Assembly (NCBI RefSeq): GCF_003206715.1
Contig: NZ_PZJU01000081.1
Location: forward strand, 9,490-48,519
Direction: 5' to 3'
DNA length: 39,030 nucleotides
Source of the DNA: Salinicola peritrichatus
GTDB taxonomy: Bacteria > Pseudomonadota > Gammaproteobacteria > Pseudomonadales > Halomonadaceae
Shown here: positions 4,028 through 32,200 of the stretch, piece by piece
How the letters are laid out: every line of letters begins with the position of its first letter
How positions within the stretch are numbered: the stretch's first letter is position 1
Made by a program: the position numbers and the translations under genes
The notes under the pieces: generated by a model
Seen by the model: only the letters and a program-made list of their open reading frames with translations
What the model was told of the DNA's origin: nothing
Database searches by the model: none

Positions 4028-5811
<1,784 letters not shown>

Positions 5812-11535: not shown

Positions 11536-11543
11536 TCGGGTCG

Positions 11544-12906: not shown

Positions 12907-14022
12907 TCAAGCCTCGCGGGCGATGACGGCGTCGTCGCGATTCTCTTTCTCGCGCGCCTTTTCGCGGATCAACGCCTCGAGATCGTCGATCAGATGATCG
13001 TTGCGCAGCTTGCTGGCCGGTTTGCCGTCGATGTAGACCAGGTTGGCCGGACTGCCACCGGTGAGACCGATGTCGGTTTCCTTGGCTTCACCGGGGCCGT
13101 TGACCACGCAGCCGATCACCGAAACGTCGAGCGGCGTCATGATGTCGTCGAGGCGCTCCTCGAGCGCGTTCATGGTGCCGATGACGTCGAAATTCTGGCG
13201 CGAACAGCTGGGGCAGGCGATGAAATTGATGCCTTTCGAGCGCAGCCGCAGGCTCTTGAGCATGTCATAGCCGACCTTGACCTCTTCGACCGGATCGGCG
13301 GCGAGCGAGACACGGATGGTGTCGCCGATGCCGTCCATCAGCAGCATGCCCAGCCCGATCGACGACTTGACCGTACCCGAGCGCAGGCCGCCGGCCTCGG
13401 TGATGCCGAGGTGCAGCGGTTGCTCGATCTGCTTGGCCAGCAGGCGATAGGCGGCGACGGCCATGAAGACGTCGCTGGCCTTGACGCTGACCTTGAAATC
13501 GGGAAAGTCGAGGCGGTCGAGGTGATCGATGTGGCGCATGGCCGATTCGACCAGCGCTTCCGGCGTCGGTTCGCCGTACTTCTTCTGCAGATCCTTCTCG
13601 AGCGAGCCGGCGTTGACGCCGATGCGGATCGGAATGCCGTGATGGCGCGCGGCATCGACCACGGCGCGCACGCGATCCTCGCGGCCGATGTTGCCGGGGT
13701 TGATGCGCAGACAATCGACGCCGAGTTCGGCGACGCGCAACGCGATCTTGTAGTCGAAGTGAATGTCGGCGACCAGCGGGACGCTGACCTGACGCTTGAT
13801 CTTGCCGAAGGCTTCGGCGGCATCCATGTCGGGCACCGAGACGCGCACGATGTCGGCGCCGGCCAGCTGCAGACGCTGGATCTGCGCGACGGTGGCAGCG
13901 ACATCGTTGGTGTCGGTATTGGTCATGCTCTGCACGGCGATGGGCGCACCGCCGCCGACAGGCACGTTACCGACATGGATCTGTCGAGAGGGACGGCGGG
14001 TGATCGGAGATGGCGTATGCAT
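12907..14022 (-). CDS. ispG: 4-hydroxy-3-methylbut-2-enyl diphosphate synthase IspG
   Basis: Radical-free Fe-S enzyme of the MEP isoprenoid pathway that converts MEcPP to HMBPP. 371 aa (E. coli 372). Seen: [68 protein letters not shown], and the [4Fe-4S] ligands in ACPSCSRQ plus the later Cys in GCVVNGPGE. The start at 14022 matches the family N-terminus ([18 protein letters not shown]); an upstream in-frame start would overlap rodZ. It follows rodZ by 7 nt, the usual order rodZ-ispG-hisS. Confidence 0.96.
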
Positions 14023-14029
14023 GGCGCTC

Positions 14030-15061
14030 TCAGTCTCCCAATGTGAAGCGGGCAACGTTGTTGCCGCCCGTGTATTGACTCAGGTCGATCGGCTCGCCGC
14101 GGTAGTCCAGCGTCACGCCGCTGGCGTTGCCGATGGTCAGGCGGAAGGGCGGCTCGCCTTCCGCGGTTGCCTGACTGCCGGCGGGCTGCAGGCCGCTGAA
14201 GATCCGATCGTCGTTGGCATCATAGATTTCGGTCCATGACTCTTCGCTGAAGGTCAGCGACAAGGTCGTGTCATCGCTCGCGGCAGCCGAATCGGAGGTT
14301 GCCGAATCGGTGTTCGGCGGCGTCTCGGAAGATGGCTCGACAGTATTCGCCAGGGTGGCGACTTGTTGGGCCTGTCGCTCGTCGGCATCGGGCGTCGAGG
14401 TTTCCGCCGAGGCCGAGACGCCGTCGCTGTTGGCAGCGTCGGAGGCGGTGTCGTCGGCCGGCAAGGAGGCTTCGTTGTCGACCTGCGGCGTATTCTGTCG
14501 GGTCGGCACCGGAGGTAGGACGGTGTCGGCATTGGGTTCCAGGCCGTTGTCGTCGCTGCCGGTGGTGTCGTCGTCGTTGAACGAGTCGACGGCGACGGGG
14601 GCATCGTCGCCACCACCGAAGACATCGTTGCCTTCACGGCTTTGCCACCACAACAGGGTCAGCGCGACCAGACCGATGATCACCAGCAGGGTAAAGAGCC
14701 GGAATAGCCACGCACCCACCCGGGAGGGGGGCTTGGCGGTGTTGACCGGCACCAGTTTGCGTTCGATGTCCGCCCGGCCATGGGTGGCATCATAGGCGTT
14801 GACGACGGCCGTCTCGTCCATCCCCATCAGGCGCGCATAGGCGCGCACGTAGCCGCGCCGATAGGCGGCGATCGGCACCTGGTCGAAGCGGTCCTCCTCG
14901 AGTCCGGCGACGACCGTCGGGCGCAGATTGAGCTGCAGCGCGACGTCTTCGAGACTCAGGCCCTGACGCTCGCGTTCGCGACGTAACATGACGCCTGCCG
15001 GTTCGTTTGGCGTCCGTGGTGCTTCTTGATGCTTCGGCTGCTGCTGGTCCATTTCGCTCAT
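14030..15061 (-). CDS. rodZ: cytoskeletal cell-shape protein RodZ
   Basis: Bitopic inner-membrane protein that links MreB filaments to the wall-synthesis machinery. 343 aa. Seen: cytoplasmic helix-turn-helix (Xre-like) domain at about 22-90 ([32 protein letters not shown]), basic juxtamembrane residues, one TM helix at about 115-137 ending LLWWQS, a long acidic Ser/Thr/Asp-rich periplasmic linker (about 140-255) and a C-terminal beta-rich DUF4115 domain ([19 protein letters not shown]...). ATG at 15061 has AGAAGGA 9 nt upstream. The linker is unusually acidic, which would fit a halophile (inference). Confidence 0.93.
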
Positions 15062-15088
15062 GAGCGAAAATCCTTCTGAATTCTAGGG

Positions 15089-15835
15089 TCAGTTCACCTT
15101 GGGAGCGCCAAGCTGTTGACGGTAAAAGGCGGCACGCGTCGAGTCTCCCTGAGCCGCGGCGATCTCGCTCGCCAGGCGCAGGCTCTCGGGATTCGTGCCA
15201 GCCACGGTGAAATAGCGCTGTAGACGCTCCCAGGCGCGTTGGTCGTTACCCTGCGTATGATCGATTCGTGCCAGGGCCAGCAGGCTGCGCGCATTGCGCG
15301 GATCGATATCGAGTGCCCGCTGATAGTGCGCTCGAGCCGCACTCGTGTCGCCCGTGGCCGTTTTACACTGGCCCAGATTCGCGAACAGCTGGGCTCTATT
15401 GGTATAGGTGATGTCCCGGCTGGCGAGTTCCAACTGCTCGCAGGCCTGCGCGTAGCGCTCGCGCTGATAGAGCAGGGCGGCATAATTGTTGCGAATCCGG
15501 GTCGCTGCGGGATCCGCTTGCAGTGCTCGTTGGAAGAAAGTCTCGGCCAGATCGAGTTCGTTCTGACGCTGATACAGCAGCGCCAATCCCTCGAGCGCGT
15601 CGCTGTCCTTGGCATCGAGCTCGAGGGCATGTTCCAGCGCCTGCTGGGCGCGTGGCAGGTTGTTCTCGGCGAGATAGGCCTTGCCGAGACGCGTATACGC
15701 TGCCGCCGCGTCTTCGGGATCGCTTCGGGACGGCCCGTTGGAGGCCACGGGCGTGGCACAGCCGCTCAGCAGACACGCCATGCCCATAGCGATACACAGC
15801 GCACGTATCGGGTAGGGACGGGGTTGGCGGGTCAT
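15089..15835 (-). CDS. pilF: type IV pilus pilotin PilF/PilW (TPR lipoprotein)
   Basis: Outer-membrane lipoprotein with TPR repeats that in Pseudomonas (PilF) is needed for assembly of the PilQ secretin. 248 aa, near the P. aeruginosa length. Seen: lipoprotein signal with LLSGC, then about six TPR units (YTRLGKAYLAENNLPRAQQAL, ALEGLALLYQRQNELDLAE, IRNNYAALLYQRERYAQAC, and so on). The start at 15835 yields the lipoprotein leader; the frame remains open further upstream without similarity. Position between rlmN and rodZ is the conserved one. Function in pili is inferred from the family; other pilus genes are outside this window. Confidence 0.9.
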   Translation of the reverse strand: MTRQPRPYPIRALCIAMGMACLLSGCATPVASNGPSRSDPEDAAAAYTRLGKAYLAENNLPRAQQALEHALELDAKDSDALEGLALLYQRQNELDLAETFFQRALQADPAATRIRNNYAALLYQRERYAQACEQLELASRDITYTNRAQLFANLGQCKTATGDTSAARAHYQRALDIDPRNARSLLALARIDHTQGNDQRAWERLQRYFTVAGTNPESLRLASEIAAAQGDSTRAAFYRQQLGAPKVN

Positions 15836-16012
15836 GTACGGCTCTCCCAGGGCTTGGGCTGTCGATGTTTGGCCGATCGAACCCCGAACGGCTGAAAATG
15901 AAGCGGTTTTGGGGCTCCCATCAAAGCGCCGCGCCGGGTTGAAGTCAAGGCAACCGCCGCGAGACATGGCGGCTCAACATCAGCCTCGGTAAGTGTCCTG
16001 CCATCCTCTGGT

Positions 16013-17146
16013 TCAATCGGCATCGAGCTGGATAGATTGAATGTAGCGTTCATGCCGCCGGGTCCGGTCCTTGACGCGCCCGACCAGCTGGCCGCAGGCC
16101 GCATCGATGTCGTCGCCACGGGTCGTGCGCACGGGAGCGGTGTAACCCAGTTCATAGAGCCAGCGCTGGAAACGCATGACCTGATTGCGCGACGGCTTTT
16201 CGTAACCCGAATGCGGGAACGGATTGAACGGAATCAGGTTGACCTTGCAGGGCAGCTCATCGAGCAGTGTCGCCAGTTGCCGGGCATGTTCCTGCTGATC
16301 GTTGACGTCCTTGATCAGGGTGTACTCGATGGTGATGTGGCGGGTGTCGCCGCACTTCTCGAGATAGCGCTGGCAGGCATCGAGCAGCTTGCGGATGTTG
16401 TACTTGCGGTTGAGCGGGACCAGCTCGTTGCGCAGCTCGTCGTTGGCGGCGTGCAGCGAGATCGCCAGGCTGACGTCGAGTTCGTCGCCGAGCTTGTCGA
16501 TCATCGGCACCACGCCGGAGGTCGACAGCGTGACGCGTCGCTTGGACAGGCCGTAGGCGTTGTCGTCGAGCATCAGCTTCATCGACGGCACTACGTTGTC
16601 GTAGTTGAGCAGGGGCTCGCCCATGCCCATCATCACCACGTTGGTGATCGCCTTGCGTCCATCGGCGGCGCTCATGCGGCCACCGGCGCGCTGCTGGGCG
16701 ACCCAGACCTGGCCGATGATCTCGGCACTGGTCAGATTGCGCTGGAAGCCCTGCTTGCCGGTGGAGCAGAAGCTGCAATCGAGCGAACAGCCCACCTGCG
16801 ACGACACGCACAGCGTGCGCCGGGTACCGTTGTCGGCGGGAATCAATACCGTCTCGACGTAGCTGCCATCCTCCACTTCCAGTACCCATTTGCGCGTGCC
16901 GTCGCTGGAGGTGCCTTCATAGACCACGCCCGGCCCGCGGATCTCGGCGTGTTCGGCCAGACGCGCGCGCAGCGGCTTGGAGAGGTTGGTCATCGACTCG
17001 AAATCGTCACAACCTTCCTGATGAATCCACTTCATGACCTGGGCGGCGCGAAACTTCTTCTCGCCCAAGGAGACGAAAAACGCCTCCATCTGCTCGCGAG
17101 AGAGCCCCAGGAGATTGGTGCGGGGAGTGGCGGTGGCAACGCTCAT
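16013..17146 (-). CDS. rlmN: 23S rRNA (adenine2503-C2)/tRNA methyltransferase RlmN
   Basis: Radical-SAM dual-specificity enzyme that methylates C2 of A2503 in 23S rRNA and A37 in a set of tRNAs. 377 aa. Seen: N-terminal [13 protein letters not shown]...[14 protein letters not shown], the radical SAM motif CSLDCSFC (Cys-x3-Cys-x2-Cys), [22 protein letters not shown], and the C-terminal catalytic Cys in [10 protein letters not shown]. It follows ndk at 82 bp, with a strong inverted repeat between them. All expected active-site residues are present. Confidence 0.97.
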
Positions 17147-17195
17147 GGCAACGGAGTCGGCTCGAGGATGGGTATCTGTGAGTGGAAGGAAGGCC

Positions 17196-17220
17196 CCGAC
17201 CGGCCGGATTGGCCGGTCGG
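17196..17220 (-). terminator. probable ndk terminator
   Basis: A perfect 10-bp inverted repeat (CCGACCGGCC/GGCCGGTCGG, 5-nt loop) begins 8 bp past the ndk stop. On the minus strand it is followed by a pyrimidine-rich GGCCTTCCTTCC rather than a pure T-run, so termination may be partial and rlmN may be partly read through. Confidence 0.45.
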
Positions 17221-17228
17221 ATGACGCA

Positions 17229-17657
17229 TCAGCCGCGCGGGCAGATTTCGTCGTCGCTGAAGAAATAGCTGACCTCGCGCGCGGCGGATTCGGGCGCGTC
17301 GGAGCCGTGCACGGCGTTGGCGTCGATGGACGACGCGAAGTCGGCGCGGATGGTGCCCGGCGCGGCTTCCTGCGGGTTGGTCGCGCCCATCAGTTCGCGG
17401 TTCTTGGCGATGGCGCTTTCACCTTCGAGGACCTGAACCATCACCGGACCGGAGGTCATGAAAGCGACCAGGTCGTTGAAGAAGCCGCGCTCTTTGTGCT
17501 CGGCATAGAAGCCTTCGGCCTGCTCCTTGGAGAGGTGCAGCATCTTGGCCGCGACGATGCGCAGACCGGCTTTCTCGAAGCGGCTGTAGATATCGCCGAT
17601 CACGTTTTTGGCAACGGCATCGGGTTTGATGATGGAAAGCGTGCGCTCGGTGGCCAT
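17229..17657 (-). CDS. ndk: nucleoside diphosphate kinase
   Basis: Transfers the gamma phosphate between nucleoside di- and triphosphates through a phospho-histidine. 142 aa (E. coli 143). Seen: [12 protein letters not shown] at the N-terminus, [14 protein letters not shown], the substrate-binding [18 protein letters not shown] and the active-site His in [15 protein letters not shown] at 17657 has AGGAGA 8 nt upstream. It is bracketed by two hairpins (17196-17220 and 17729-17760), so it may be a separate transcript within the isc-to-der gene run. Confidence 0.97.
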
Positions 17658-17728
17658 GACTTCGGTCTCCTGGCTGATAATGGTGAAACGACTGCGATTG
17701 GCAGTCGGAATTCGAACGGGTGATGCGA

Positions 17729-17760
17729 GACGACGCGCCACGAAGGAGTGGCGCGTCGTC
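17729..17760 (-). terminator. 13-bp perfect hairpin between iscA and ndk
   Basis: GACGACGCGCCAC pairs perfectly with GTGGCGCGTCGTC around a 6-nt loop, one of the longest stems in the window. It lies 131 bp beyond the iscA stop and 72 bp before ndk. No T-run follows on the minus strand. It may be a terminator, a processing site or a REP-like unit. Confidence 0.45.
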
Positions 17761-17890
17761 CGGAGTCATCGCTGGCCGGTGCCGAGTAGGATCGGCCCCG
17801 GCCGAAAAATCGCGCCATTGTAGCGCAAGCCCGCAGCCGACGCATCTCGCGCGGCGAAGCCGTGGGGCTGCGTTCAGACGCTGAAGCTTA

Positions 17891-18217
17891 TCAGACGCTA
17901 AAGCTCTCGCCGCAGCCGCATTCGTCGGTCACGTTGGGGTTATTGAAGCGGAAGAAGCGATTGAGCCCTTCGCTGACGTAGTCGACCTCGGTGCCGTCGA
18001 GGATCGCCAGGGCATCCTTGTCGACCAGCACCTTCACGCCGCGCTCCTCGAAAGCGACATCGTCCTCGCGCGCCTCGTCGGCGATGTCGAGCACGTAACT
18101 GTAGCCGGAACAGCCGCTGGGCTTGACCGCGACGCGTAGCCCCAGGCCGCTGCCGCGCTCCTCGAGCACGTGACGGATCTGATTGGCGGCGGCTTCACTG
18201 ATGGTGATGTTTTGCAT
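17891..18217 (-). CDS. iscA: A-type iron-sulfur carrier IscA
   Basis: HesB/IscA-family protein of 108 aa that carries iron or [4Fe-4S] clusters to apo-targets. Seen: [18 protein letters not shown] with Cys36 and the C-terminal CGCGESFSV with Cys100 and Cys102, the three invariant cysteines (E. coli IscA 35, 99, 101). The [17 protein letters not shown] ending is closer to IscA than to ErpA or SufA. In most gammaproteobacteria iscU lies between iscS and iscA; here iscA follows iscS by only 44 bp and no scaffold gene is present. Confidence 0.93.
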
Positions 18218-18261
18218 GGCATTTCTCCCTGCCGTGGATGAAGGGCAATGGAGCCTTCATC

Positions 18262-22080: not shown

Positions 22081-22116
22081 AAACGCCCTGTCGGCTCGCT
22101 GCCGGCAGGGCGTTTT
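22081..22116. terminator. bidirectional rho-independent terminator
   Basis: AAACGCCCTG-TCGGC pairs with GCCGG-CAGGGCGTTT around a 5-nt loop, a stem of about 15 bp with one G-T pair. TTTT follows on the plus strand and TTT on the minus strand. It lies between convergent suhB and the aldehyde dehydrogenase and would end both the suhB transcript and the seven-gene catabolic operon. Confidence 0.8.
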
Positions 22117-22133: not shown

Positions 22134-23579
22134 TCAGGCCGGTCCAATCAAGTGCTTCATTTCCAGGTAAGCGGAGAGTCCCCAGGGGCCGAGTTCGCGT
22201 CCGATGCTGCTGCGCCCGAAACCGCCCCAACTGGCCTCCGGCATCACCACCTGTTCGCTGTTGAACCACACGCTGCCGGCCCGTAGCGCCCGGCCGACAC
22301 GGCGGGCGCGTTCGGTGTCGCCCGAGATCACGGTGGCAGCGAGCCCGAAGTCGGAGTCGTTGGCCAGTTCGATGGCTTCCTCCTCGCTGACCACGCTGCG
22401 TGCGCAGAGGACAGGCCCGAAGATCTCCTCGCGCCACAGCCGGCTATCGTGGGGCACGTCGCGGTAGAGCGTGGGGGCGACGAACTCGCCCTGCGCGGGC
22501 AACTTGCGATGCCGGGCATCGCGAACGGCGGTCAAGCCTTCCTCGGTGGCGATGGCGAGATAACGTTCCACGTTTTCGCGCTGGCGGACGCTGGTCATCG
22601 GCCCCATGTCGGTGTCATCGGCTAGGGGGTCGCCCAGGCGCAAGGCGTCGATCCGTTGACCGAGAGCCGCATAGAGAGGCTCGGCCAACGAATGATGGAC
22701 GATCAGTCGCGAGGTCGCCGAGCAAATCTGCCCGCTATTGAAGTAGATGCCCGCCATCACCCAGTCGGCGGCCTGGTCGATCTCGGCGTCGTCCAGCACC
22801 AGGATCGGCGACTTTCCGCCGAGCTCCAGCGAAACGCCACGACTCCCCTCGGCAGCGGCCTGCATGACACGCTCGCCCACGGCGTTGCTGCCGGTGAACG
22901 ATAGCTTGTTGATACCAGCATGGGCGCACAGCGGGGCGCCAATGCCTTCGCCATCACCGAGCACCAGATTGAACACCCCCGGTGGCAATCCGATCTCCAG
23001 CGCGATCTCGGTCAGCGCCAGCTCCGGCAGTGGCACCACTTCCGAAGGCTTGAACACCACGGTACAACCGGCGGCCAACGCCGGAGCAATCTTCCAGGCG
23101 CTGGTCACCAGCGGGAAATTCCAGGGCGTGATCAGCCCGACCACGCCTGCCGGGTCTTCGTAGATACGCGCCGCGACACCGTCCACGTCGTGTTCCACCA
23201 GGCGCCCTTGGCGGGCTTCGAGCGCTCGCGCTTGTCCGGCATAGTAACGGTAGCAGGCGATGGCGTCGTCCAGGTCGATGGCGGCTTCGGCCAGTGTCTT
23301 GCCGTTGTTGATGGATGACAGATGCATCAGCGTCTCGCGTCGCTCGGACAGTGCGCTGGCGAAGGCCTCGAGATAGCTGGCGCGCGCCTCGCCGCCGAGG
23401 GCCTGCCAGGCGGGCAGTGCACGACGGGCGGCCGTGACGGCGGCCTCGACATCGGCGGGGGCGCCGGCGGTAACCTCCGCGATCTGCCATTGGCGGTAAG
23501 GGTCCAGGACCGGCAGGCAGCGTGATCCATGGCTCGCGACCCACCGGTTGTCGATAAACTGCTGGATCAAACGTTGCAA
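22134..23579 (-). CDS. aldehyde dehydrogenase (aminoaldehyde/betaine-aldehyde type)
   Basis: NAD(P)-dependent dehydrogenase of 481 aa that oxidises an aldehyde to the acid; last gene of the sigma54 operon. Seen: TPWNFPL (Asn154), Glu252 in LELGGKSP and the nucleophile Cys286 in SGQICSATSRLIV. The CSATSRL context is typical of betaine-aldehyde and gamma-aminobutyraldehyde/guanidinobutyraldehyde dehydrogenases (BetB, KauB, PatD families). The start is TTG at 23577-23579 with GAGGAG 5 nt upstream; no ATG nearby suits. It follows the NCS1 permease by 34 bp and is followed by a strong terminator. Likely substrate, by context, is an amino- or guanidino-aldehyde; this is inference. Confidence 0.9.
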   Translation of the reverse strand: MQRLIQQFIDNRWVASHGSRCLPVLDPYRQWQIAEVTAGAPADVEAAVTAARRALPAWQALGGEARASYLEAFASALSERRETLMHLSSINNGKTLAEAAIDLDDAIACYRYYAGQARALEARQGRLVEHDVDGVAARIYEDPAGVVGLITPWNFPLVTSAWKIAPALAAGCTVVFKPSEVVPLPELALTEIALEIGLPPGVFNLVLGDGEGIGAPLCAHAGINKLSFTGSNAVGERVMQAAAEGSRGVSLELGGKSPILVLDDAEIDQAADWVMAGIYFNSGQICSATSRLIVHHSLAEPLYAALGQRIDALRLGDPLADDTDMGPMTSVRQRENVERYLAIATEEGLTAVRDARHRKLPAQGEFVAPTLYRDVPHDSRLWREEIFGPVLCARSVVSEEEAIELANDSDFGLAATVISGDTERARRVGRALRAGSVWFNSEQVVMPEASWGGFGRSSIGRELGPWGLSAYLEMKHLIGPA

Positions 23580-23613
23580 GGGAACTCCTCAAGCGGTCGG
23601 TGACAGAAACGGA

Positions 23614-24951
23614 TCATGCCCGGTTCCCGGTAGCGGTGCGACGGGTTGCATGGCTGGCCCGTGCCACCACCCAGTAGAGTGCGCCGGTGAGTACGAACAC
23701 AGGCAGCGAAGCGCCGATCGACAGCGGCGCGACCCAGTTCCAGTAGTAGGCCAGCACGGCGCCGATAGCATAGGCCGCTACCGCCTGCCAATTGATCCCG
23801 GGGAGTGCTGACTGCTCGCCGAGTAGCGACTCGGAAGTGTAGCGAGCATGGCGGTCGCCGAGCAGGTAGTAGTCGACGATCATCAGCGCGAAGGCCGGGA
23901 TGAAGACGCTACCGATGATCAGCAGGAAGGTCTGGAAACTATCGAGAATGCCGGGAATCAGCGATCCGAATACGGTGATCACGCCGATCACCAGTGCCGG
24001 TTTCCAGAAGGTTGAACGGCGTCGTGCGCTCATGTAGGAGAGCGTGGCGCTATAGACGCACATGACATTGGTGGTAAGCACCGAGAAGAAGATCACCAGG
24101 GCGGCGGGCAGGCCGAAGCCGAACTGGCTGAGCAACTGGGTTGGGTCGTAGGTGGCAGTCATGCCGTGGGCAACCGATAGCCCGGCCACCGCGGCACCCA
24201 GCCCCATGGCAATCATGGTGGCGGCAACATAACCACTCCAAGTACCGATCATGGCCACTCGATTGCTCTTGCAATGGCGGTTGTAGTCGGCGGCCAGCGG
24301 GATCCAGGAGAAGGCGGTGGCGATGACGATATCGAAGGCGCCACCCGGGGTCATGTCGCCTTGTGGCGCTACCTCGAGCAGGCTGGGGAGGTCGTAGTAG
24401 CGCCCAAGGGCATAGAGCACTACCACCGCCAGAGCCAGCATCAGAATCGCCGCCCACTTCTCGGCGCGTTCGATGCCTAGATGGCCGCGCAACGCGATCG
24501 CCACCACGAGGGTTTCGCAGATCACCGTGAACAACGCCACATTGGAGTAGCTGGTGAGATAGTTCACTGCGTAGTCGAGACTCATGCCGGCCAGACGTGC
24601 CTGGATCCAGCTCCAGGCGATCAGCGCCAGTAGATTGACCCAGGCCGGAACACCGGCGCCCATGCGACCGAAGGCGGCGCGCGCCAGCACCATGGTGGTC
24701 ATGCCGGTGCGGGAGCCCATCACGCCGATCAGTACCAGTGGCACGATGCCGATGGCTGAGCCTAGAAATACCAGCCACATCGCCGTGACGAAGGAGAGTG
24801 CCGGTACCAGCAGCATGCCGGTCAGCACGGTGGTGACGACGACGTTGGCGCCCAGCCACAGGGCGAAGGTACCGGACAGGCCCAGGCTGCGCTCGACATT
24901 ATCGTCGAGAGCATCCTGGCCGAAAGCCGTTGAGGTATCGAGGTGAGCCAT
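23614..24951 (-). CDS. NCS1-family permease (cytosine/purine permease-like)
   Basis: Inner-membrane secondary transporter of 445 aa, the CodB branch of nucleobase-cation-symport-1. Seen: about 12 hydrophobic segments, an N-terminal DDNVERSLGLSGTFALWLGANV typical of CodB-like proteins, GSRTGMTTMVLARAAFGRMGAGVPAWVN, and WIPLAADYNRH in the middle, followed by YSATLSYMSA. Known NCS1 substrates are cytosine, purines, hydantoins, allantoin and related small N-rich heterocycles, so a guanidino or ureido compound is plausible but not shown. ATG at 24951 has GAGGA 8 nt upstream. It lies between the ureohydrolase and the aldehyde dehydrogenase in the same operon. Confidence 0.87.
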   Translation of the reverse strand: MAHLDTSTAFGQDALDDNVERSLGLSGTFALWLGANVVVTTVLTGMLLVPALSFVTAMWLVFLGSAIGIVPLVLIGVMGSRTGMTTMVLARAAFGRMGAGVPAWVNLLALIAWSWIQARLAGMSLDYAVNYLTSYSNVALFTVICETLVVAIALRGHLGIERAEKWAAILMLALAVVVLYALGRYYDLPSLLEVAPQGDMTPGGAFDIVIATAFSWIPLAADYNRHCKSNRVAMIGTWSGYVAATMIAMGLGAAVAGLSVAHGMTATYDPTQLLSQFGFGLPAALVIFFSVLTTNVMCVYSATLSYMSARRRSTFWKPALVIGVITVFGSLIPGILDSFQTFLLIIGSVFIPAFALMIVDYYLLGDRHARYTSESLLGEQSALPGINWQAVAAYAIGAVLAYYWNWVAPLSIGASLPVFVLTGALYWVVARASHATRRTATGNRA

Positions 24952-25033
24952 GGTTGTTCCTCTTGTTCGATGGCGACGATTGTCGATAGCGGGGGTTCGG
25001 TTGGCGGTGCGCATATCGACGCACCGCCGTCGC

Positions 25034-26005
25034 TCAGGCGTGGCGCTTCACCCCTGGTAGTATGCAAAGCATCTCGAACAGCAGGTTGGCGGCGACCACC
25101 GCGGTCTGGCCGTGGGCGTCATAGGGCGGCGAGACTTCGACCAGGTCGCAGCCGACGATGTCGAGCCCGTGGGCGCCGCGAATGATCTCCAGCGCCTGGG
25201 GAATGGTCAGCCCGCCGATCTCCACCGTGCCGGTGCCCGGGGCATAGGCCGGGTCGAGGCTGTCGATGTCGTAGCTCAGATAGACCGGGCCACCGCCGAC
25301 CTTTTCTCGAATCTCGGCCATCAAGGGCGTCAGGCTCTTGTGCCAGCACTCCTCGGCGGGCACCACGCGAAAGCCCTGTGCGCGACCCCAGTCGAACTCC
25401 TCGGCGGAGTAGCCGGTGCCGCGCAGGCCGATCTGGGCCACGCGGTTGCCGTCGAGCAGGCCTTCTTCCACCGCGCGACGGAACGGCGTTCCATGCGCGA
25501 TGGCTTCTCCGAACATGTGCTCGTTGATGTCGGCGTGGGCATCGACATGGATCAGCCCCACCGGCCCATGCTTCTTGGCCATGGCGCGCAGGATCGGCAG
25601 CGCGATGGTGTGATCGCCGCCCAGGGTCAGCGGGATCACATCATGGGTCAGCAGTTCGTCGTAATAGCGCTCGATGATGTCGACACTCTTCTTGAGATCG
25701 AAGGTGTTGATCGGCACGTCGCCGATGTCGGCTATCTGCAGGCTTTCGAAGGGCGCGGCGCGGGTGGCCATGTTGTAGGGTCGCAGCATGCGCGACTCGT
25801 CGCGGATCTGGCGCGGCCCGAAGCGGGTACCGGGGCGGTTGGAGGTGCCGATATCCATCGGGATGCCGACGAAGCAGGCGTCCAGCCCGGCGGCGCTCTG
25901 CTGCGTGGGCAGGCGCATCATGGTGGCGGGGCCGCCGAAACGTGGCATCTCATTGCCGCCGAGGGGCTGGTTGAGCGGCGGGTTGAGAGCGTGTGGCGTA
26001 TCCAT
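25034..26005 (-). CDS. ureohydrolase, guanidinobutyrase/agmatinase family
   Basis: Binuclear-manganese hydrolase of 323 aa that should split a guanidino group to an amine plus urea. Seen: metal ligands His132 (GGDHTI), Asp155/His157/Asp159 (DAHAD) and Asp246/Asp248 (DIDSLDP). The N-terminus QPLGGNEMPRFGGPATMMRLP, RPYNMATRAAPFESLQ and ECWHKSLTPLMAE strongly resemble Pseudomonas guanidinobutyrase GbuA (4-guanidinobutyrate to GABA + urea) more than E. coli SpeB. ATG at 26005 has GGAG 8 nt upstream, and a small hairpin (CGGCATC/GATGCCG, 26034-26050) precedes it. Guanidinobutyrase is the best guess; guanidinopropionase, agmatinase or guanidine hydrolase remain possible. Confidence 0.9.
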   Translation of the reverse strand: MDTPHALNPPLNQPLGGNEMPRFGGPATMMRLPTQQSAAGLDACFVGIPMDIGTSNRPGTRFGPRQIRDESRMLRPYNMATRAAPFESLQIADIGDVPINTFDLKKSVDIIERYYDELLTHDVIPLTLGGDHTIALPILRAMAKKHGPVGLIHVDAHADINEHMFGEAIAHGTPFRRAVEEGLLDGNRVAQIGLRGTGYSAEEFDWGRAQGFRVVPAEECWHKSLTPLMAEIREKVGGGPVYLSYDIDSLDPAYAPGTGTVEIGGLTIPQALEIIRGAHGLDIVGCDLVEVSPPYDAHGQTAVVAANLLFEMLCILPGVKRHA

Positions 26006-26078
26006 ATCAGATGCTCCTTCTTTTGCTGGGTAGCGGCATCCGGGATGCCGTTTCTTGCGATGTCGGCCATGTAAGCGC

Positions 26079-27602
26079 TCAGCCCTGGGGCGGCTCCGGC
26101 GACAGGCCGATAAAGCGTTTCAGGCGTTCGTCGCCACCGGCGCGAATGGTTGCCGGCGAGGCGTCGGCCTGGATATGGCCGTGTTCCATGAACACCACCC
26201 GGTCGGCGATCGACATCGCGAACTCCATCTCGTGGGTCACGATCAGCATCGTCATGCCCTCGTCAGCGAGATCCCGGATCACCTTGAGCACGTCGCCGAC
26301 CAGTTCTGGATCGAGCGCCGAGGTCGGCTCGTCGAACAGCATGATCTCGGGGCGCATCGCCAATGCCCGGGCGATCGCCACACGCTGCTGCTGGCCGCCG
26401 GAGAGCTGGTGCGGATATTTGTTGGCATGGGCCAGCAGGCCGACCTTGTCGAGCAGTGCCAGCGCTGCCGGGCGCTCTGCCGCGCCGTCGCCGAGAGCGT
26501 GGTAACGCGGCCCCATCAGCACGTTGTCGACGATGGTGCGATGAGGGAACAGATTGAAGCTCTGGAACACCATGCCGATGCGGTGGATGCCGGCGTGGAA
26601 GGCGGCGGACTGGCGCTCGCCGGCGCGCAGGAAGCTCTCGCCGAACAGCACGATCTCGCCCTGGTTCAGCGTCTCCAGGCCGTTGACAGTACGGATCAGC
26701 GAGGTCTTGCCACTGCCGGAGGGGCCGATGATGACGATGACCTCGCCACTGGCCACCTTGAGATCGATTCCCTTCAAAACCTCATGGTCGCCGTAGCGCT
26801 TGTGGATATCACGCAGTTGCAGTGCCGGCGGCTGGCCGGGAACCTGGACTGCGCGGGCCGGGGTCGGAGGTGGCGGCAACCGGCGGCGGATATCGGCGAC
26901 CTCGTCGTCAGTCAGTGTCGCCGCGCGACGGCGTTGCAGATCGAGCCGGCGTTCCAGCCACTGCAGCAGCCAGCCGAACAGGGTGACGATCATCACGTAG
27001 TAGATCGCCACCGCGGCGAGGGTCTCCAGCACCAGGAAGTTGGAGGCGTAGAGACGCTGCCCAACCAGCAGGATCTCGGTCAGCGAGATCACCGACACCA
27101 GCGAGGTCAGCTTGACGATGGTGATGTACTCATTGGTCAGCGTCGGCAGGGCGATGCGGAATGCCTGTGGCAGCACCACCAGGCGCTGGGTACCGATCAG
27201 GCGAATACCGAGCGCCCGGGCGGCTTCGCGCTGGCCTTGGGGCACCGACAGCAGCCCGCCACGATGGATCTCCGCCATGTAGGCAGCTTCGGTCAGGATC
27301 AGCGAGATCAGGCCGGCATAGAAGGATTGCGACAACAGCCAGCGCAGCGATGGCACCAGCTGCGGTAGGTTGTAGAAGAAGATCAGCAGCACCAGCAACG
27401 GCACGCTGCGGAAGAACCAGACATAGATCGATACCGGCCAGCGCAGCCAGGCGTGGGAGGACTGCTTGGCCAGGGCCAGCAGAAAACCGATGGCCATGCC
27501 GATGAGCCAGGAGAGCAGGCTCAACTGGATGACCGTCAGGCAGGCGCGCCAGAACGCGCCCACCGAGAACAGCGAGAAGAAATAGGGCCAGTCGAATGGC
27601 AT
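26079..27602 (-). CDS. fused amino-acid ABC transporter permease-ATPase
   Basis: Single 507-aa polypeptide joining the membrane and ATPase parts of a polar-amino-acid (HAAT-type) importer. Seen: residues 1-222 are a HisM/GlnP-type permease with about five TM helices and the EAA loop (EAARALGIRLIGTQRLVVLPQ, from 126). A Pro-rich charged linker (225-258) follows. Residues 260-507 are the ATPase with Walker A GPSGSGKT (293-300), LSGGQQQR (400-407), Walker B IMLFDE (420-425) and the H-loop in IVTHE. The start at 27602 has GAGG 7 nt upstream. Only one permease is encoded, so the complex is probably a homodimer working with the adjacent binding protein. Likely cargo: a cationic or guanidino amino acid. 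Confidence 0.9.
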   Translation of the reverse strand: MPFDWPYFFSLFSVGAFWRACLTVIQLSLLSWLIGMAIGFLLALAKQSSHAWLRWPVSIYVWFFRSVPLLVLLIFFYNLPQLVPSLRWLLSQSFYAGLISLILTEAAYMAEIHRGGLLSVPQGQREAARALGIRLIGTQRLVVLPQAFRIALPTLTNEYITIVKLTSLVSVISLTEILLVGQRLYASNFLVLETLAAVAIYYVMIVTLFGWLLQWLERRLDLQRRRAATLTDDEVADIRRRLPPPPTPARAVQVPGQPPALQLRDIHKRYGDHEVLKGIDLKVASGEVIVIIGPSGSGKTSLIRTVNGLETLNQGEIVLFGESFLRAGERQSAAFHAGIHRIGMVFQSFNLFPHRTIVDNVLMGPRYHALGDGAAERPAALALLDKVGLLAHANKYPHQLSGGQQQRVAIARALAMRPEIMLFDEPTSALDPELVGDVLKVIRDLADEGMTMLIVTHEMEFAMSIADRVVFMEHGHIQADASPATIRAGGDERLKRFIGLSPEPPQG

Positions 27603-27636
27603 CAGCGACCTCGGGCAGCGTCGGAATGTCCGGGAG

Positions 27637-27670
27637 CCGGCTACCGCCTGCTGCATTCAGGCGGTGCCGG
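27637..27670 (-). other. stem-loop between binding protein and ABC permease genes
   Basis: CCGGC-ACCGCCTG type arms pair over 13 bp with one bulged T (27637-27650 with 27658-27670) in the 121-bp spacer. No T-run follows on the minus strand. Such stems after periplasmic binding-protein genes commonly protect the upstream mRNA or cause partial termination, giving more binding protein than permease. Confidence 0.5.
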
Positions 27671-27723
27671 AAGCGCCGGCGTTGGGCGCATGAACAGCGT
27701 CAGGGTTGGGCGAACACGCCGGA

Positions 27724-28536
27724 TCAGGCGGCCTCGAGGCTGTACTCGTCCAGCAGCGCTTGATACTCGTCGGTCTGCTTGAATTCGTTCACCGCCGCCT
27801 CGAGCGCCTGGAACAGCGCCTCGTTACCCTTCTTGACGTAGATGCCCAGGGTTTCCGGATAGAGCGCGTGCTCGGAGCTGATGACGATGCGTCCACGCGA
27901 CTTGTCGGCGATCGACTGCGAGGCGCTGACGATCTCCATGTGCGCCTGGATGTTGCCGGAGAGCAGCGCCTGCGAGGTTTCGGACGTGGTCGGGAATTCG
28001 CGCAGGGTGATCGCGCCCTTGCCATTGGCCTCGCAGTAGCTGGTGGAGAGGTCGTTGAGCTTGGCCACCCAGGAAGTGCCCTGCTGCAGGCCGACGGTCA
28101 GGCCGCAGAGATCCTCTGGCTCCTTGGGCATCACTTTGCTGTCGGCGGTGACCATGATCGCGGCTCCGGTCTGGGCATAGGGGATGGCGTCGGCCTGCTT
28201 GAGGCGGTCGGGCAGAATGTACATGCCGGAGATGATGGTATCGAAACGGCCGCTGTTGAGCCCCAGGATGAGATTGGGGAAGCGAGTATCGAAGTAGTCG
28301 ACCTCGAGTCCCATGCGCTCGGCCAGCGCGCTGGCGACATCCGGGTCGAAGCCGACGACCTTGTCGCCGTCATAGGATTCGAAGGGCGGATAGGCGATCT
28401 CCATGCCCACCGTCAGCACGCCTTCGTTGAGCGTTGGCGGCGTCTCGACCGCCTGGCTAGGCTGGACGGCCATCAGACCGAACAGACCGGTGGCGGTCAG
28501 GGTGGAAGCAGCGATCTTGCGGACGTTGAAGGTCAT
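27724..28536 (-). CDS. periplasmic amino-acid-binding protein (SBP family 3)
   Basis: Soluble solute receptor of 270 aa for the neighbouring ABC importer. Seen: Sec signal peptide with cleavage near PSQA-VETPP (residue 34 area), then the family 3 core: LTVGMEIAYPPFESYDGDKVVGFDPDVA, DTIISGMYILPDR, GLTVGLQQGTSW and a C-terminal YQALLDEYSL. A disulfide is likely between Cys residues in EDLCGL and STSYCEANG. The start at 28536 has AGGA 9 nt upstream; the open frame upstream to 28713 lacks a leader. Family 3 proteins bind polar or charged amino acids and opines; ligand not determinable here. Confidence 0.9.
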   Translation of the reverse strand: MTFNVRKIAASTLTATGLFGLMAVQPSQAVETPPTLNEGVLTVGMEIAYPPFESYDGDKVVGFDPDVASALAERMGLEVDYFDTRFPNLILGLNSGRFDTIISGMYILPDRLKQADAIPYAQTGAAIMVTADSKVMPKEPEDLCGLTVGLQQGTSWVAKLNDLSTSYCEANGKGAITLREFPTTSETSQALLSGNIQAHMEIVSASQSIADKSRGRIVISSEHALYPETLGIYVKKGNEALFQALEAAVNEFKQTDEYQALLDEYSLEAA

Positions 28537-28583
28537 GTCGGTCGTTCCTGTTGGGTTTGTTCTGGGTTGTCGTGGGCAACGTT

Positions 28584-29627
28584 TCAGTCTTGCTCTTGTG
28601 CATGCTTCAGATGGCCGAAGCTGGATGGCTTGCGGGCGCCATCCGGCAATGCCAGTTCGCCGGCCTCGACCTTGCGCTGAAGATAGCGATAGGTCTGCAG
28701 GGCCTGACCCCACATGTGATCGCCGACGGCGATCGCCTCGTAGTGGGGCTCGCTGCTGGCGAACTGAGGCAGCGGCTTGACCTGGGTGTGGTAATCGCAG
28801 GCATAGAACAGCGGGAAGGAGTAGCGCTCCTCCTGAACGCTGCGCACACGGTGAGCAGTGGCGACGAAGGCGCCGTCGGTCATCACCTCCAGCATGTCAC
28901 CGATGTTGACGACGAAGCCTCCTGCGACCGGCGATGCATCGATCCACTCGCCGAGGTCGTTCATCACCTCGAGTCCCGGCTTGCGCGAGTAGAGAATGGT
29001 GAAGCATTCGTAGTCGGTATGGGCGCCGATGCCGGGTGCGTCCCGGGCCTCGTCGTCGAACGGGTAGTGGATCAGGCGCAGTTTGGAGGGCGGCGCGGTG
29101 ACCAGCGCGTCGAAATAGGTCTCCGGCAGCCCCAAGGCCAGGGCGAAACCGTGAAACAGCCGGCGGCCGAGGGCGAAGACGGCGTCGTAATAGGCTTTGA
29201 CCGCTGCCCGAAAACCGGGCAGATCGGGCCACTCGTTGGGGCCGATCAGCGGCGTCCCGGCGACATAGAGCGGGTGATCCTCGGCGACCTCGAAGCCAAC
29301 GTCGAAGGCTTCCTTGTGGTCGGTCTTCTTGGAATAGACTTCCTCGCCTTCCGGGACGAAGCCCTTGTGGCTGCGGGAGTCGCCGATGTACTGGCGCATC
29401 TTGGCTGCCAGCGGCTGGGCGAAATAGGCCCGTGCGGCCTCATGTAGCCCTTCGATCAGCGCCGGGTCGATACCATGGCCGACGATGTGCAGGAAGCCGA
29501 CCTCGCGGGCGGCGCGGCCCAGCGCCTCGGCGACCGCTTGGCGGTCTTCCAGACGGTCGCTGAAGAGCCCGCCGATGTCGATCACGGGGATCTCGGTGAA
29601 GCGCTTGATGTTGTCGTTGTCAGGCAT
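28584..29627 (-). CDS. 2-oxoglutarate/Fe(II) oxygenase, isopenicillin N synthase-like
   Basis: Non-heme iron oxygenase of 347 aa. Seen: N-terminal DIOX_N region ([25 protein letters not shown]), then the jelly-roll with iron ligands His203 and Asp205 ([11 protein letters not shown]) and His259 (ATAHRV), and the Arg-x-Ser pair Arg268/Ser270 (RYSFP) that binds 2-oxoglutarate. All catalytic residues are intact. Relatives hydroxylate amino acids; some (ethylene-forming enzyme on arginine, plant homoarginine-6-hydroxylases) release guanidine after hydroxylating next to the guanidino nitrogen, which fits this operon. ATG at 29627 has GGAG 8 nt upstream; ATG at 29633 overlaps the upstream stop (ATGA) but is only 2 nt from GGAG. 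Substrate is inferred, not known. Confidence 0.87.
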
Positions 29628-29629
29628 GC

Positions 29630-30508
29630 TCATGGCTCCATGGATAGGGGCTGGTGAGTGGACCACCGATCGAAGTGGCGGCGTTCGCAGTCGGCCATCC
29701 AGCGGTTGAGTTGCCACAGGTTAGCGACGGGTACATCGGTGAAAGGCAGATGATGCAGGTAGCCATCGGCGCCGAATTCCGGCGTCAGGGTAGTGATCTC
29801 GCGGCCCTGGGCGCGCTGGGCTTCCCAGATCGCGGCCCAGTGGCGCTGATGAAAAGCCAGGGCTTCGGCGTGCTCCGGTGCGGCCGGGTGCGGCACCTGC
29901 GGCCCCTGGTCGTAGCCGACCCGGGCCTGGATGTGGTGGACGCGTTCGATGAACGCGGTGAGATCGTCCGCCGGATCGTCGAGCAGGCGCTCGCAGGTAA
30001 CCACCCAGTGGCTGATGTCACTGGTAAAGCGCAACTCGGGCAGTTGGCGGATCAATTCGAGTGTCACCCACGGACTGTAGAGCGAGCGTGCGCGATGGGT
30101 TTCGAATACGCAGGTAAGGCCGCTGTCGGCGGCGATCTCCAGGGCGCGGCCGAAGAACTCGACCTGGCTCGACAGCGGCCAGCGGTCGTTGCCGGCCAGC
30201 ACGTTGACGAAACGCGGTGCGAGTTCATGGGACCAGGCCAACTGGCGGGCGAAATCGTCGAGATGATCGGCGGGAGTATCGCTCTGCCGTGGCAACACCG
30301 GAGCGGAGGTGAACAGGATGCAGATGTAGGGCAGGCGCTCGGCCTGGAGGAAATCGGCCAGCGCGGTTCGCGTCCCGGCGTCGGCCGGCAGGCGCGCCTC
30401 GATGCCGTCAAAACCGGCGGCTCTCAGCTCGTCGCAGGCTTGCTGCCAGCGACCCTGAAAACCCCACAGGGTACGGAAGATTTCCAGCTCGAAGGGCTGG
30501 TCGGCCAT
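29630..30508 (-). CDS. sugar-phosphate isomerase/epimerase-like TIM-barrel protein
   Basis: Xylose-isomerase-like TIM barrel of 292 aa (AP-endonuclease family 2 fold) and first gene of the operon. Seen: FDGIEARLP (Glu37) and a likely metal site made of Glu136 (VFETHR), Asp164 (FTSDISHW), His191 or His192 (RVHHIQ) and Glu244 (TPEFG). Relatives include hydroxypyruvate isomerase, inosose dehydratase and many uncharacterised enzymes; the exact reaction cannot be assigned. The start at 30508 has AGGA 9 nt upstream; ATG at 30523 or 30538 are alternatives. Its stop overlaps the oxygenase start region, so the two are translationally coupled. Confidence 0.82.
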
Positions 30509-30565
30509 GGCTTGGATTCCTGTCATTGTGGTTGTCATGGTCGGCGTCTCGCCTCTACGACTAAA

Positions 30566-30580
30566 GCAGAAAGCGTGCCA
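30566..30580 (-). promoter_or_regulatory. sigma54 (-24/-12) promoter of the catabolic operon
   Basis: Minus strand TGGCACGCTTTCTGC matches the RpoN consensus TGGCAC-N5-TTGC with GG and GC exactly 12 bp apart, 58 bp upstream of the first gene. Start point expected near 30554. It points at the seven-gene operon and sits opposite the gene for a sigma54 activator. Confidence 0.8.
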
Positions 30581-30642
30581 ACTGCCGTCAGCGCGTGATC
30601 TGGCGCTTTCAGGGGCGGGAATCGTCGTACGGGCTTCTTTTC

Positions 30643-30658
30643 GATCCATTAATGGATC
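30643..30658. promoter_or_regulatory. 16-bp palindrome, probable activator (UAS) site
   Basis: GATCCATTAATGGATC is a perfect palindrome, 62 bp upstream of the -24 box and 34 bp before the regulator start. This is the usual distance for an enhancer bound by a sigma54 activator and would also allow autoregulation. A second shorter palindrome AATGATTCATT (30672-30682) may be a weaker site. Confidence 0.65.
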
Positions 30659-30691
30659 AAACTGGACCGACAATGATTCATTTTGGTATCG

Positions 30692-32131
30692 ATGATGCAA
30701 AACCGTATCGATGTGCAGGAGACTCTCGAACAGCGGATTCTGGAGACACTGATACAGACGGCCCAGGATCACCTGTTCATCGTCGACGAGAGCGGGCGAA
30801 TCCTGGCGGTCAGCCCCAGCAGTGCAGCGGTCTACGGCATGAGCCGCGAAGAACTGTGCGCGACCACGGTCCAGGCGCTGGAGTCCCAAGGGGTGCTGAC
30901 CCCCTCGGTGTCGATGGAAGTGATGCGTACCGGACGCTCGGCGCAGTTGCTGCAACGCACCGCCACCGGGCGCCAGGTGGTCGCCGAGGCGCACCCGGTC
31001 TACTGGCAGGGCAGGCTCAAGTGTATCGTCAGTCGCTCGATGGACATGACCGACGTGCGCTTGCTGCAGGACGAGTACGCGCTGCTGCAGCGGCGCTTCA
31101 GCGAGCATCTGGCGCGTGGCGGCGCGACGCCGGAACCGGCGGCAGGACTCGAGGACCTGGAAGTGCGCAGCCAGGTGATGCGGGAAGTCGCCCAGTTGCT
31201 GGAGCGGGTTGCGGTCACCGACGCCACCGTGCTGATGCTGGGCGAGTCCGGCGTCGGCAAGACCGCCTTCGCCCGCCAGTTGCATCGCTGGAGCCGGCGG
31301 GCCGACGGCGCCTTCGTCGACGTCAACTGCGCGGCGATTCCGGAGTCGCTGTTCGAATCCGAAATGTTCGGCTATCAGCCCGGCGCCTTCAGCGGCGCGG
31401 CCCGACAGGGCAAGGCCGGCCTGCTGGAACAGGCACACAAGGGCACGCTGTTTCTCGACGAGATCGGCGAGCTGCCGCTGGCAATGCAGTCCAAGCTACT
31501 CAAGGTGATTCAGGATGGCTCGCTGACCCGGCTTGGCGACACCAGGACGAGGCGAGTCGATTTCCGGCTGGTGGTGGCGACCAACCAGGACCTAGCCAAG
31601 CGGGTCGAGGAGGGGCGTTTCCGGCTCGATCTCTACTACCGTCTCAACGTGATCCCGGTCACGCTGCCACCGCTGCGCGAGCGCCGTGAGGACATTCCCG
31701 GGCTGGCCGAACGCCAGTTGGCGCGGCTCAACCGGCGCTACGGCGGCGAAAAGATGCTGCATCCCCGGGTACTGTCCGAGCTGATGAGCAACGACTGGCC
31801 CGGCAACGTCAGGGAATTGGAAAACTGGCTGGAGCGCGCCTGGTTGTCCGCCGACGAGGCACTCATCGGTGCCCCGGCCATGTCGGCGCCGACAATGACG
31901 AGGCCGTCAGCATCCGAAGCCGGGCAAGGAACGGTTGCGCCGCAAACCGAGCCCGATGCGCTCGCCCCGGGGCAAGGGTTGAAGGCGGCGCTGGATGCCT
32001 GCGAACGCCAGATTCTGGTTTCGTTGGCGGCGACCCATCGCACCACCTATGCCCTGGCCGAGCGACTCGGGATCAGCCAGCCCAGCGTGGTGCGCAAGCT
32101 CAAGCGTCACGGCATTGGGCTCAATTCCTGA
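30692..32131 (+). CDS. sigma54-dependent transcriptional activator (PAS-AAA+-HTH)
   Basis: Enhancer-binding protein of 479 aa, the likely switch for the divergent operon. Seen: N-terminal PAS sensor at about 15-125 (HLFIVDESGRILAVSPSSAAVYG); AAA+ domain with Walker A GESGVGKT (184-191), the sigma54-contact loop GAFSGA (231-236; usual form GAFTGA), Walker B GTLFLDEIGE (251-260) and the R-finger region YYRLNVIP; a variable linker (390-425); and a C-terminal HTH (452-475, YALAERLGISQPSVVRKLKRHG) of the TyrR/Fis type. No receiver domain, so control is probably by ligand at the PAS domain. Start not supported by a good ribosome site; ATG 30692, ATG 30695 and TTG 30683 are all possible. Confidence 0.92.
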   Translation: MMQNRIDVQETLEQRILETLIQTAQDHLFIVDESGRILAVSPSSAAVYGMSREELCATTVQALESQGVLTPSVSMEVMRTGRSAQLLQRTATGRQVVAEAHPVYWQGRLKCIVSRSMDMTDVRLLQDEYALLQRRFSEHLARGGATPEPAAGLEDLEVRSQVMREVAQLLERVAVTDATVLMLGESGVGKTAFARQLHRWSRRADGAFVDVNCAAIPESLFESEMFGYQPGAFSGAARQGKAGLLEQAHKGTLFLDEIGELPLAMQSKLLKVIQDGSLTRLGDTRTRRVDFRLVVATNQDLAKRVEEGRFRLDLYYRLNVIPVTLPPLRERREDIPGLAERQLARLNRRYGGEKMLHPRVLSELMSNDWPGNVRELENWLERAWLSADEALIGAPAMSAPTMTRPSASEAGQGTVAPQTEPDALAPGQGLKAALDACERQILVSLAATHRTTYALAERLGISQPSVVRKLKRHGIGLNS

Positions 32132-32151: not shown

Positions 32152-32178
32152 AAAAAGGCCTCCCGCGATGGAGAAGCC
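32152..32178 (-). terminator. secF terminator
   Basis: On the minus strand AGGCTTCTCC and GGGAGGCC form a stem (8 pairs, two G-T) followed directly by TTTTT, 22 bp past the secF stop. It would end the sec transcript, converging on the sigma54 activator gene. Confidence 0.65.
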
Positions 32179-32200
32179 TGGATGAATCGCCTGGTCGGAA

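Follow-up and report, generated by a model that had tools for sequence, protein, structure and literature searches.

The window, as we call the whole 39,030-nucleotide stretch of DNA analysed here, comes from contig NZ_PZJU01000081.1 of the Salinicola peritrichatus assembly GCF_003206715.1, and all positions are given within it. It contains an eight-gene locus in which seven co-directional genes on the minus strand diverge from a gene on the plus strand that encodes a PAS/AAA+ activator of sigma54 promoters (REG). Counting from the divergent gene, the seven encode a TIM-barrel protein (TIM), a 2-oxoglutarate (2OG)- and Fe(II)-dependent oxygenase (OXY), a periplasmic binding protein (SBP), a fused transport protein (ABC), a ureohydrolase (URE), a permease of the NCS1 family and an aldehyde dehydrogenase (ALDH) (Table 1). 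We checked the gene ends by translation; the places and families that a preliminary description of this DNA had given to the eight genes agree with both the translations and Pfam.

Table 1 Genes and control elements of the locus, in order from the activator gene to the closing hairpin
Feature	Assignment	Positions	Strand	Length and remarks	Basis
REG	PAS + Sigma54_activat + HTH activator	30692..32131	+	479 aa from ATG; TTG start at 30683 also open	Pfam
Palindrome	TGATYCATTAATGRATCA type, probable activator site	30640..30661	.		Pattern scan and comparison
Promoter	sigma54 -24/-12 element TTGGCACGCTTTCTGCTT	30564..30581	-		Pattern scan and comparison
TIM	Xylose isomerase-like TIM-barrel protein, proposed hemiaminal lyase	29630..30538	-	302 aa	PF01261
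OXY	2OG-Fe(II) oxygenase, MgdH-like, DIOX_N + 2OG-FeII_Oxy	28584..29633	-	349 aa	Pfam
SBP	Family 3 periplasmic binding protein (SBP_bac_3)	27724..28536	-	270 aa	PF00497
ABC	BPD_transp_1 + ABC_tran fused in one protein	26079..27602	-	525 aa ORF, 507 aa from likely ATG	PF00528 + PF00005
URE	GbuA-type guanidinobutyrase, Arginase family	25034..26005	-	323 aa	Pfam, solved-chain comparison
NCS1 permease	Transp_cyt_pur, candidate 4-guanidinobutyrate importer	23614..24951	-	445 aa	PF02133
ALDH	Aminoaldehyde/betaine-aldehyde type, candidate 4-guanidinobutyraldehyde dehydrogenase	22134..23579	-	481 aa from TTG	PF00171
Hairpin	Closing hairpin behind ALDH	22081..22115	-		Folding energy

The seven genes and their activator constitute a sigma54-controlled operon, as the AAA+ activator domain of REG (Sigma54_activat, 223.7 bits against a cut-off of 20.2) and the -24/-12 promoter indicate. 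Taken alone, the promoter sequence TTGGCACGCTTTCTGCTT lies within chance expectation (one match against 0.45 expected, for the canonical pattern scanned with up to one mismatch). Of 12 intergenic regions tested in gbu-type or TIM operons, 11 contain the element TTGGCAYGN5TGC, the exception being the region before TIM in locus L014, and eight of the element's nine occurrences in 356,674 strand-bases (eight whole loci) fall at promoter position. Upstream of the promoter, the palindrome of the TGATYCATTAATGRATCA type is matched once at up to three mismatches against 0.01 expected, with a pattern derived in part from locus L161, where the palindrome is perfect. It is less constant than the promoter element, being found with at most three mismatches in 7 of the 12 intergenic regions and in a looser form or not at all in the others. 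TIM and OXY overlap by an ATGA at 29630-29633. Where a strong terminator had been proposed to close the unit, there is a stable hairpin behind ALDH (-27.2 kcal/mol, z -5.8); its T run is short and it is absent from the output of the terminator scan. The entry of that scan at 32156-32179 lies on the minus strand, behind secF.

A four-gene module joined to a 4-guanidinobutyrate unit

Among the best 80 of 401 TIM relatives, a sample that leans towards the group of loci to which the window belongs (group I), TIM, OXY, SBP and ABC are consecutive and in the same order in 79 loci. The remaining window genes accompany them less often: a GbuA-type ureohydrolase is found in 30 of the 80 loci, an NCS1 permease in 13, ALDH in 8 (one of these a distant match about 9 kb away) and the activator in 3 (one a partial match of 52%). 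This search for the gene set in other genomes, a check that the preliminary description had itself named, recovers a four-gene core and not the full set of seven, and the earlier picture of a single seven-gene pathway is not supported. In one Pseudomonas locus (L073), the stretch between TIM and SBP holds only a C-terminal remnant of the oxygenase (10850-11060); because this remnant is still readable, we take the absence of the oxygenase there to be a loss.

The other genes are found without the four. Five further Salinicola genomes (L158-L162) have the activator and GbuA (93-95% identical) but lack TIM-OXY-SBP-ABC; in L159, L161 and L162 the window's flanks are present on both sides (iscS-iscR-trmJ-suhB and secF-secD), and in L158 and L160 on one side, after which the contig or stretch ends. 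Two other Halomonadaceae loci without the module (L163 and L164) carry the activator, GbuA, a gene 55% identical to the representative of a decarboxylase-like cluster described below, an NCS1 permease and an ALDH-like gene (71-79% identical). Because the gbu genes stand alone in these loci, we divide the operon in two: the activator, GbuA, the permease and ALDH appear to form a 4-guanidinobutyrate unit, to which TIM-OXY-SBP-ABC has probably been added at the promoter-proximal position. In Halomonadaceae, a REG-like gene (65-80% identical) lies divergently beside gbuA or the four-gene module. In Pseudomonas, the module either adjoins a gbuA locus that has a LysR regulator, gbuA preceding or following the four genes, or lies at another site in the genome; the LysR gene used as query has counterparts of 77-88% identity beside gbuA at four module-free loci (L165, L166, L167 and L169).

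NCS1-type genes lie near gbuA at module-free loci as well (L163, L164, L166, L167 and L169), and the idea that the permease marks a ring-shaped substrate was dropped on this ground. The transporter beside gbuA varies within Salinicola, with an SSF symporter in L161 (8118-9500) and NCS1 plus ALDH in the window; an ORF in L162 (7963-9345) begins almost like the L161 symporter. ALDH itself scores below the cut-offs of all 25 NCBIfam models shown. An SDR-family dehydrogenase gene lies directly behind the ABC gene in 22 of 81 clustered loci (for example L064:14451-15239). A cluster resembling 5-guanidino-2-oxopentanoate decarboxylase is present in 30 of these 81 loci, one representative scoring 859.1 bits against a cut-off of 500, which fits an arginine-derived chain that is left intact.

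Group I modules occur in genomes with GbuA

By sequence, URE is closer to guanidinobutyrase than to guanidinopropionase, agmatinase or arginase. Its best solved chain is the guanidinobutyrase 3nio (532.6 bits), ahead of guanidinopropionase (321.1), proclavaminate amidino hydrolase (229.8), agmatinase (190.0) and arginase (127.5 bits), in line with the GbuA-like ureohydrolase of the preliminary description. Counting against the guanidinobutyrase assignment, NCBIfam names the protein an agmatinase (212.8 bits, cut-off 174.3).

GbuA (at least 67% identity) is present in all 35 group I genomes searched, which comprise 14 from the genome sets and 21 picked because GbuA did not lie in their TIM locus; among seven genomes with other TIM groups it is present in one (G045). 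An even sample consisted of 148 genomes of the family of genome G181, which includes Pseudomonas and Stutzerimonas, searched for TIM at E 1e-60 and for GbuA at E 1e-120. Here TIM is found in 21 genomes and GbuA in 71. Seventeen of the 21 are assigned to group I, from the loci read or from the oxygenase next to TIM, and GbuA is present in every one of them; the remaining four, of group II (L170) or with a desaturase-type oxygenase (L171-L173), lack it. GbuA thus accompanies 17/17 group I genomes against 54/131 of those without group I (Fisher p 1.2e-6, uncorrected for kinship). The group I oxygenase (at least 71% identity) is present in 16 of the 148 genomes, all 16 with TIM; the one group I genome left over, G946, corresponds by its contig position to the locus with the oxygenase remnant. 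The converse does not hold, as GbuA often occurs in genomes that lack the module (22 of 54 relatives in an initial sample).

OXY is related to genes in the position of MgdH

The residues that bind Fe(II) and the 2OG arginine (H202, D204, H258 and R267, in 346-residue numbering) are identical in all 91 group I sequences, that of the window among them, and the HxD...H triad and the arginine are also kept in three of three group II sequences and three of three sequences from the position of MgdH. The earlier statement that all ligands of the oxygenase are intact therefore holds. The MgdH-position genes (L011, L015 and L016) are 56-58% identical to OXY and stand in guanidine-carboxylase operons directly before an mgdL-like ORF; the names MgdH and MgdL for these genes rest on gene neighbourhood and not on the published sequences. 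According to PMC12508155, MgdH of Vreelandella boliviensis demethylates methylguanidine in such an arrangement, with MgdL as a second protein.

In a tree of the oxygenases, group I OXY forms one clade (99/99) that joins the three MgdH-position genes with support of 85/73, and the two together are set apart from two paralogues of the window's own genome (100/100). No mgdL-like gene was found beside OXY in the ten group I loci fetched (query, the MgdL-like protein of L015); the neighbours of OXY in the window are TIM and SBP. The solved structures nearest to OXY are a reconstructed, nearly inactive ancestor of the ethylene-forming enzyme (EFE; 40% identity; PMC12329707) and an uncharacterized Pseudomonas aeruginosa protein (38%); its identity to P. 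syringae-type EFE in the structural match is about 23%. Lys181 is present in 91 of 91 group I sequences and is replaced by Gln in the MgdH-position and group II sequences, three of each. Group-specific residues such as this one may bind a carboxylate of the substrate; we do not use them as evidence. A further MgdH-like stretch (44% identity) lies about 2 kb behind the gbu activator of a module-free genome (L164:13799-14572).

TIM relatives accompany unrelated oxygenases

TIM scores 46.1 bits with PF01261 (AP_endonuc_2; cut-off 31.1), and its confident model (pLDDT, the predicted local distance difference test score, 92.4) shares its fold with D-tagatose 3-epimerase, AsbF and IolE. Six residues (E146, D174, H177, H202, R206 and E254) are invariant in 30 homologues, and the Glu, Asp, His and Glu among them are candidate metal ligands by analogy with D-tagatose 3-epimerase. 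A sequence search of solved structures returned no relative at E 0.01, which speaks only of absence at that threshold, and fold searches gave no reaction.

Among 24 order-wide TIM loci read, window included (a 25th, in G478, short and with an internal stop, was left out), an oxygenase-type gene is nearby in 22: 11 of group I, 1 of group II and 10 of the desaturase type, the last identified as PF00487 in the three tested. Two distant loci, L144 and L145, have no oxygenase-type gene nearby. In the TIM tree, group I is one clade (100/100) with the desaturase-type rows outside it, although long branches make the branching order unsure. In L143, TIM and its desaturase-type partner lie among import and guanidine carboxylase genes, with a Guanidine-II riboswitch just above the gathering score before the carboxylase; in L141, the pair lies beside a guanidine-carboxylase operon that is on the other strand and has a guanidine riboswitch. 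In L142 (5181-11595), FrmA and FrmB (formaldehyde detoxification) are followed in a row by a TIM relative and a desaturase-type oxygenase. TIM thus appears to accompany an oxygenase, in part within guanidino chemistry, which is the place of MgdL.

Two side observations concern these relatives. The L143 operon (3791-18222) also holds a creatininase-family gene and a type III glutamate-ammonia ligase (644.9 bits, cut-off 469.6). Three-gene units of TIM, a guanidine-type binding protein and a second MgdH-like oxygenase are found at L110:7328-10320, L017:9848-12932 and L170:7433-10482; their binding protein is above the TIGR03427 cut-off in L017 and recognized by similarity in L110 and L170. In L110, neither a permease nor an ATPase gene was seen as an immediate neighbour of the unit.

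A class II aldolase and a GhrA-like reductase lie behind the module in six order-wide group I loci (L109, L131, L132, L134, L135 and L136). The aldolase representative, from L047, scores 324.6 bits with NF005451 (cut-off 207) and its cluster is present in 16 of 81 loci; the reductase of L109 reaches 194.1 bits, below the cut-off of 403. Neither gene was matched beside the module in the window's close relatives. One reading of these genes is that the substituent removed is larger than a methyl group, being carboxyalkyl or sugar-derived as in glycated arginine or opine-like compounds, with glyoxylate, pyruvate or a sugar fragment passing to the aldolase and reductase and TIM acting as a sugar-type isomerase. 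The fold of sugar epimerases would suit this, but the limited distribution of the extra genes does not, and TIM relatives stand with oxygenases in guanidine-carboxylase and formaldehyde contexts, where no sugar substituent is suggested; we consider it improbable. The second reading, the least probable of those considered, is that the carbon hydroxylated by OXY lies in the chain at a distance from the nitrogen, as with some arginine hydroxylases, that TIM is an isomerase or dehydratase of the hydroxylated guanidino acid and that the aldolase, where present, splits the product. The epimerase/isomerase fold with its invariant candidate metal-site residues would be as expected for such an enzyme, yet TIM relatives also pair with desaturase-type oxygenases and adjoin guanidine carboxylase, and the genes most similar to OXY occupy the position of a demethylating enzyme.

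GbuA is constant among module genomes, guanidine carboxylase is variable

A full-length guanidine/urea carboxylase is missing from 9 of 41 group I module genomes, two Salinicola genomes among them, and present in 32. The search scored the best candidates of a first pass (at most 17 per genome, and at most 68 with stricter filters for the riboswitch), and the absences are absences of that kind. Carboxylase matches alone cannot separate guanidine from urea carboxylase; because a Guanidine-I riboswitch match is missing in exactly the same nine genomes, we read most of them as guanidine carboxylase. All nine have GbuA, five by genome search and four in the locus itself. Since the carboxylase is not constant and GbuA is, a product that goes to GbuA is favoured over free guanidine as the needed product.

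These data bear on the proposal of the preliminary description that the oxygenase releases guanidine and a semialdehyde. In such a scheme, the substrate would be 4-guanidinobutyrate, agmatine or arginine, and OXY would hydroxylate its chain at the carbon adjoining the guanidino group; TIM would split the hemiaminal to give guanidine and the semialdehyde, ALDH would oxidize the latter and GbuA would be a parallel exit for the same substrate. There is precedent in EFE and the plant enzyme 2-ODD-C23, which act in this way on arginine or homoarginine (PMC11018352 and PMC12508155); TIM relatives adjoin guanidine carboxylase; and, besides the 32 module genomes with the enzyme, the window's own genome carries a guanidine-carboxylase operon (L011, G000:C74:6000-25999) with MgdH- and MgdL-position genes and a Guanidine-II riboswitch. 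On the other side stand the nine genomes that do without carboxylase and riboswitch match and nevertheless keep GbuA. In the window, only a tRNA and no guanidine riboswitch was found at the Rfam gathering score, ALDH is present in only 8 of 80 loci, and a single operon encoding two enzymes that compete for the same substrate would be unusual. The nearest characterized relative, MgdH, moreover removes an N-methyl group. Guanidine release is thus less likely than first proposed, and we regard it as a doubtful explanation. Hydroxylation of homoarginine, or of arginine at C5, is kept as an alternative and not as the main reading because of the same contrast between a constant GbuA and a variable carboxylase; we found nothing that points to homoarginine as the substrate.

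Proposed oxidative N-dealkylation ahead of GbuA

The general proposal of a sigma54-controlled operon for the uptake and oxidative breakdown of a guanidino compound is supported by this analysis. Because OXY resembles MgdH-position genes, TIM relatives pair with oxygenases and GbuA is constant in group I, we favour oxidative N-dealkylation of a guanidino acid ahead of GbuA, to which we give a probability of about one half. SBP and the fused ABC protein would import an N-substituted guanidino acid, and OXY would hydroxylate the substituent at its carbon attached to the guanidino nitrogen. TIM, in a role like that of MgdL, would then cleave the hemiaminal so formed, releasing an aldehyde (formaldehyde in the case of a methyl substituent) and a free guanidino acid, which GbuA would convert to γ-aminobutyrate and urea. 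The NCS1 permease would import free 4-guanidinobutyrate, and ALDH would oxidize 4-guanidinobutyraldehyde. We infer every reaction of this scheme, the substituent and the substrate from what is directly seen, namely gene content and order, conservation, control elements, family kinship and co-occurrence.

More tentatively, the MgdH-like oxygenase and TIM, the latter as an N-(hydroxyalkyl)guanidine lyase, a new activity, may demethylate free methylated guanidino acids, compounds derived from methylarginine, for ordinary 4-guanidinobutyrate catabolism. As part of the same tentative proposal, the same kind of TIM protein, paired with an unrelated desaturase-type oxygenase, may serve guanidine carboxylase elsewhere, so that one lyase family would have two exits. 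The likeliest substrates are 4-guanidinobutyrate in N-methylated form or a methylated form of one of its precursors, agmatine or arginine. In the window's genome no decarboxylase exceeds the NF005712 cut-off (best 294.9 bits), and the decarboxylase-like cluster is present in 30 of 81 loci; the entry compound may therefore differ between hosts.

Several points weigh against N-dealkylation, the missing decarboxylase of the window's genome being one and the carboxylase of most module genomes, which leaves room for guanidine release, another. TIM has a fold familiar mainly from epimerases, isomerases and dehydratases, and its lyase activity is a guess from gene position. A scan of 129 loci for FrmA and FrmB alone, within about 10 kb, gave them in just one, L142, and in none of group I; the Rieske-type gene (named by eye) near them on the opposite strand is a possible alternative source of formaldehyde. 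The aldolase and GhrA-like reductase of six loci are unexplained by demethylation. The tree program warned of long branches where group II joins the other oxygenases. Finally, MgdH was inactive with N-methylarginine and dimethylarginine, as reported in PMC12508155.

Relation to known systems

Each enzyme family of the locus is known. The GbuA route has its place among the arginine routes of Pseudomonas. The window shares with this 4-guanidinobutyrase route (3nio) the association of a ureohydrolase, an NCS1-type permease and, in relatives, a 5-guanidino-2-oxopentanoate decarboxylase-like gene, and differs in the addition of TIM, OXY, SBP and ABC upstream and, in Halomonadaceae, in a sigma54 activator instead of the LysR regulator of Pseudomonas loci. 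We did not find this gene combination described as a pathway in the open-access literature, in which the nearest work is that on MgdH. The MgdH/MgdL system of V. boliviensis (PMC12508155) has in common with the window a related 2OG-Fe(II) oxygenase with a second protein, guanidino chemistry and a host in the Halomonadaceae. In the window, by contrast, the second protein is a TIM barrel and the module has no MgdL-like gene, the partner is GbuA and not guanidine carboxylase, control is by a sigma54 activator and not guanidine riboswitches, and the importer is of the amino-acid type. EFE and 2-ODD-C23 (PMC12329707, PMC11018352) are likewise 2OG-Fe(II) oxygenases that hydroxylate a carbon on a guanidino nitrogen; the low identity of OXY to P. 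syringae-type EFE separates it from the former.

If correct, N-dealkylation ahead of GbuA would provide bacteria with a route to N-substituted guanidino acids, for which we found no oxidative pathway in the open-access literature. It would also name a second enzyme for the splitting of stable guanidino hemiaminals, the step exemplified by MgdL. Finally, it would account for the four-gene block shared by Pseudomonas and some Halomonadaceae, and would make methylated guanidino compounds a concrete candidate nutrient for these bacteria.

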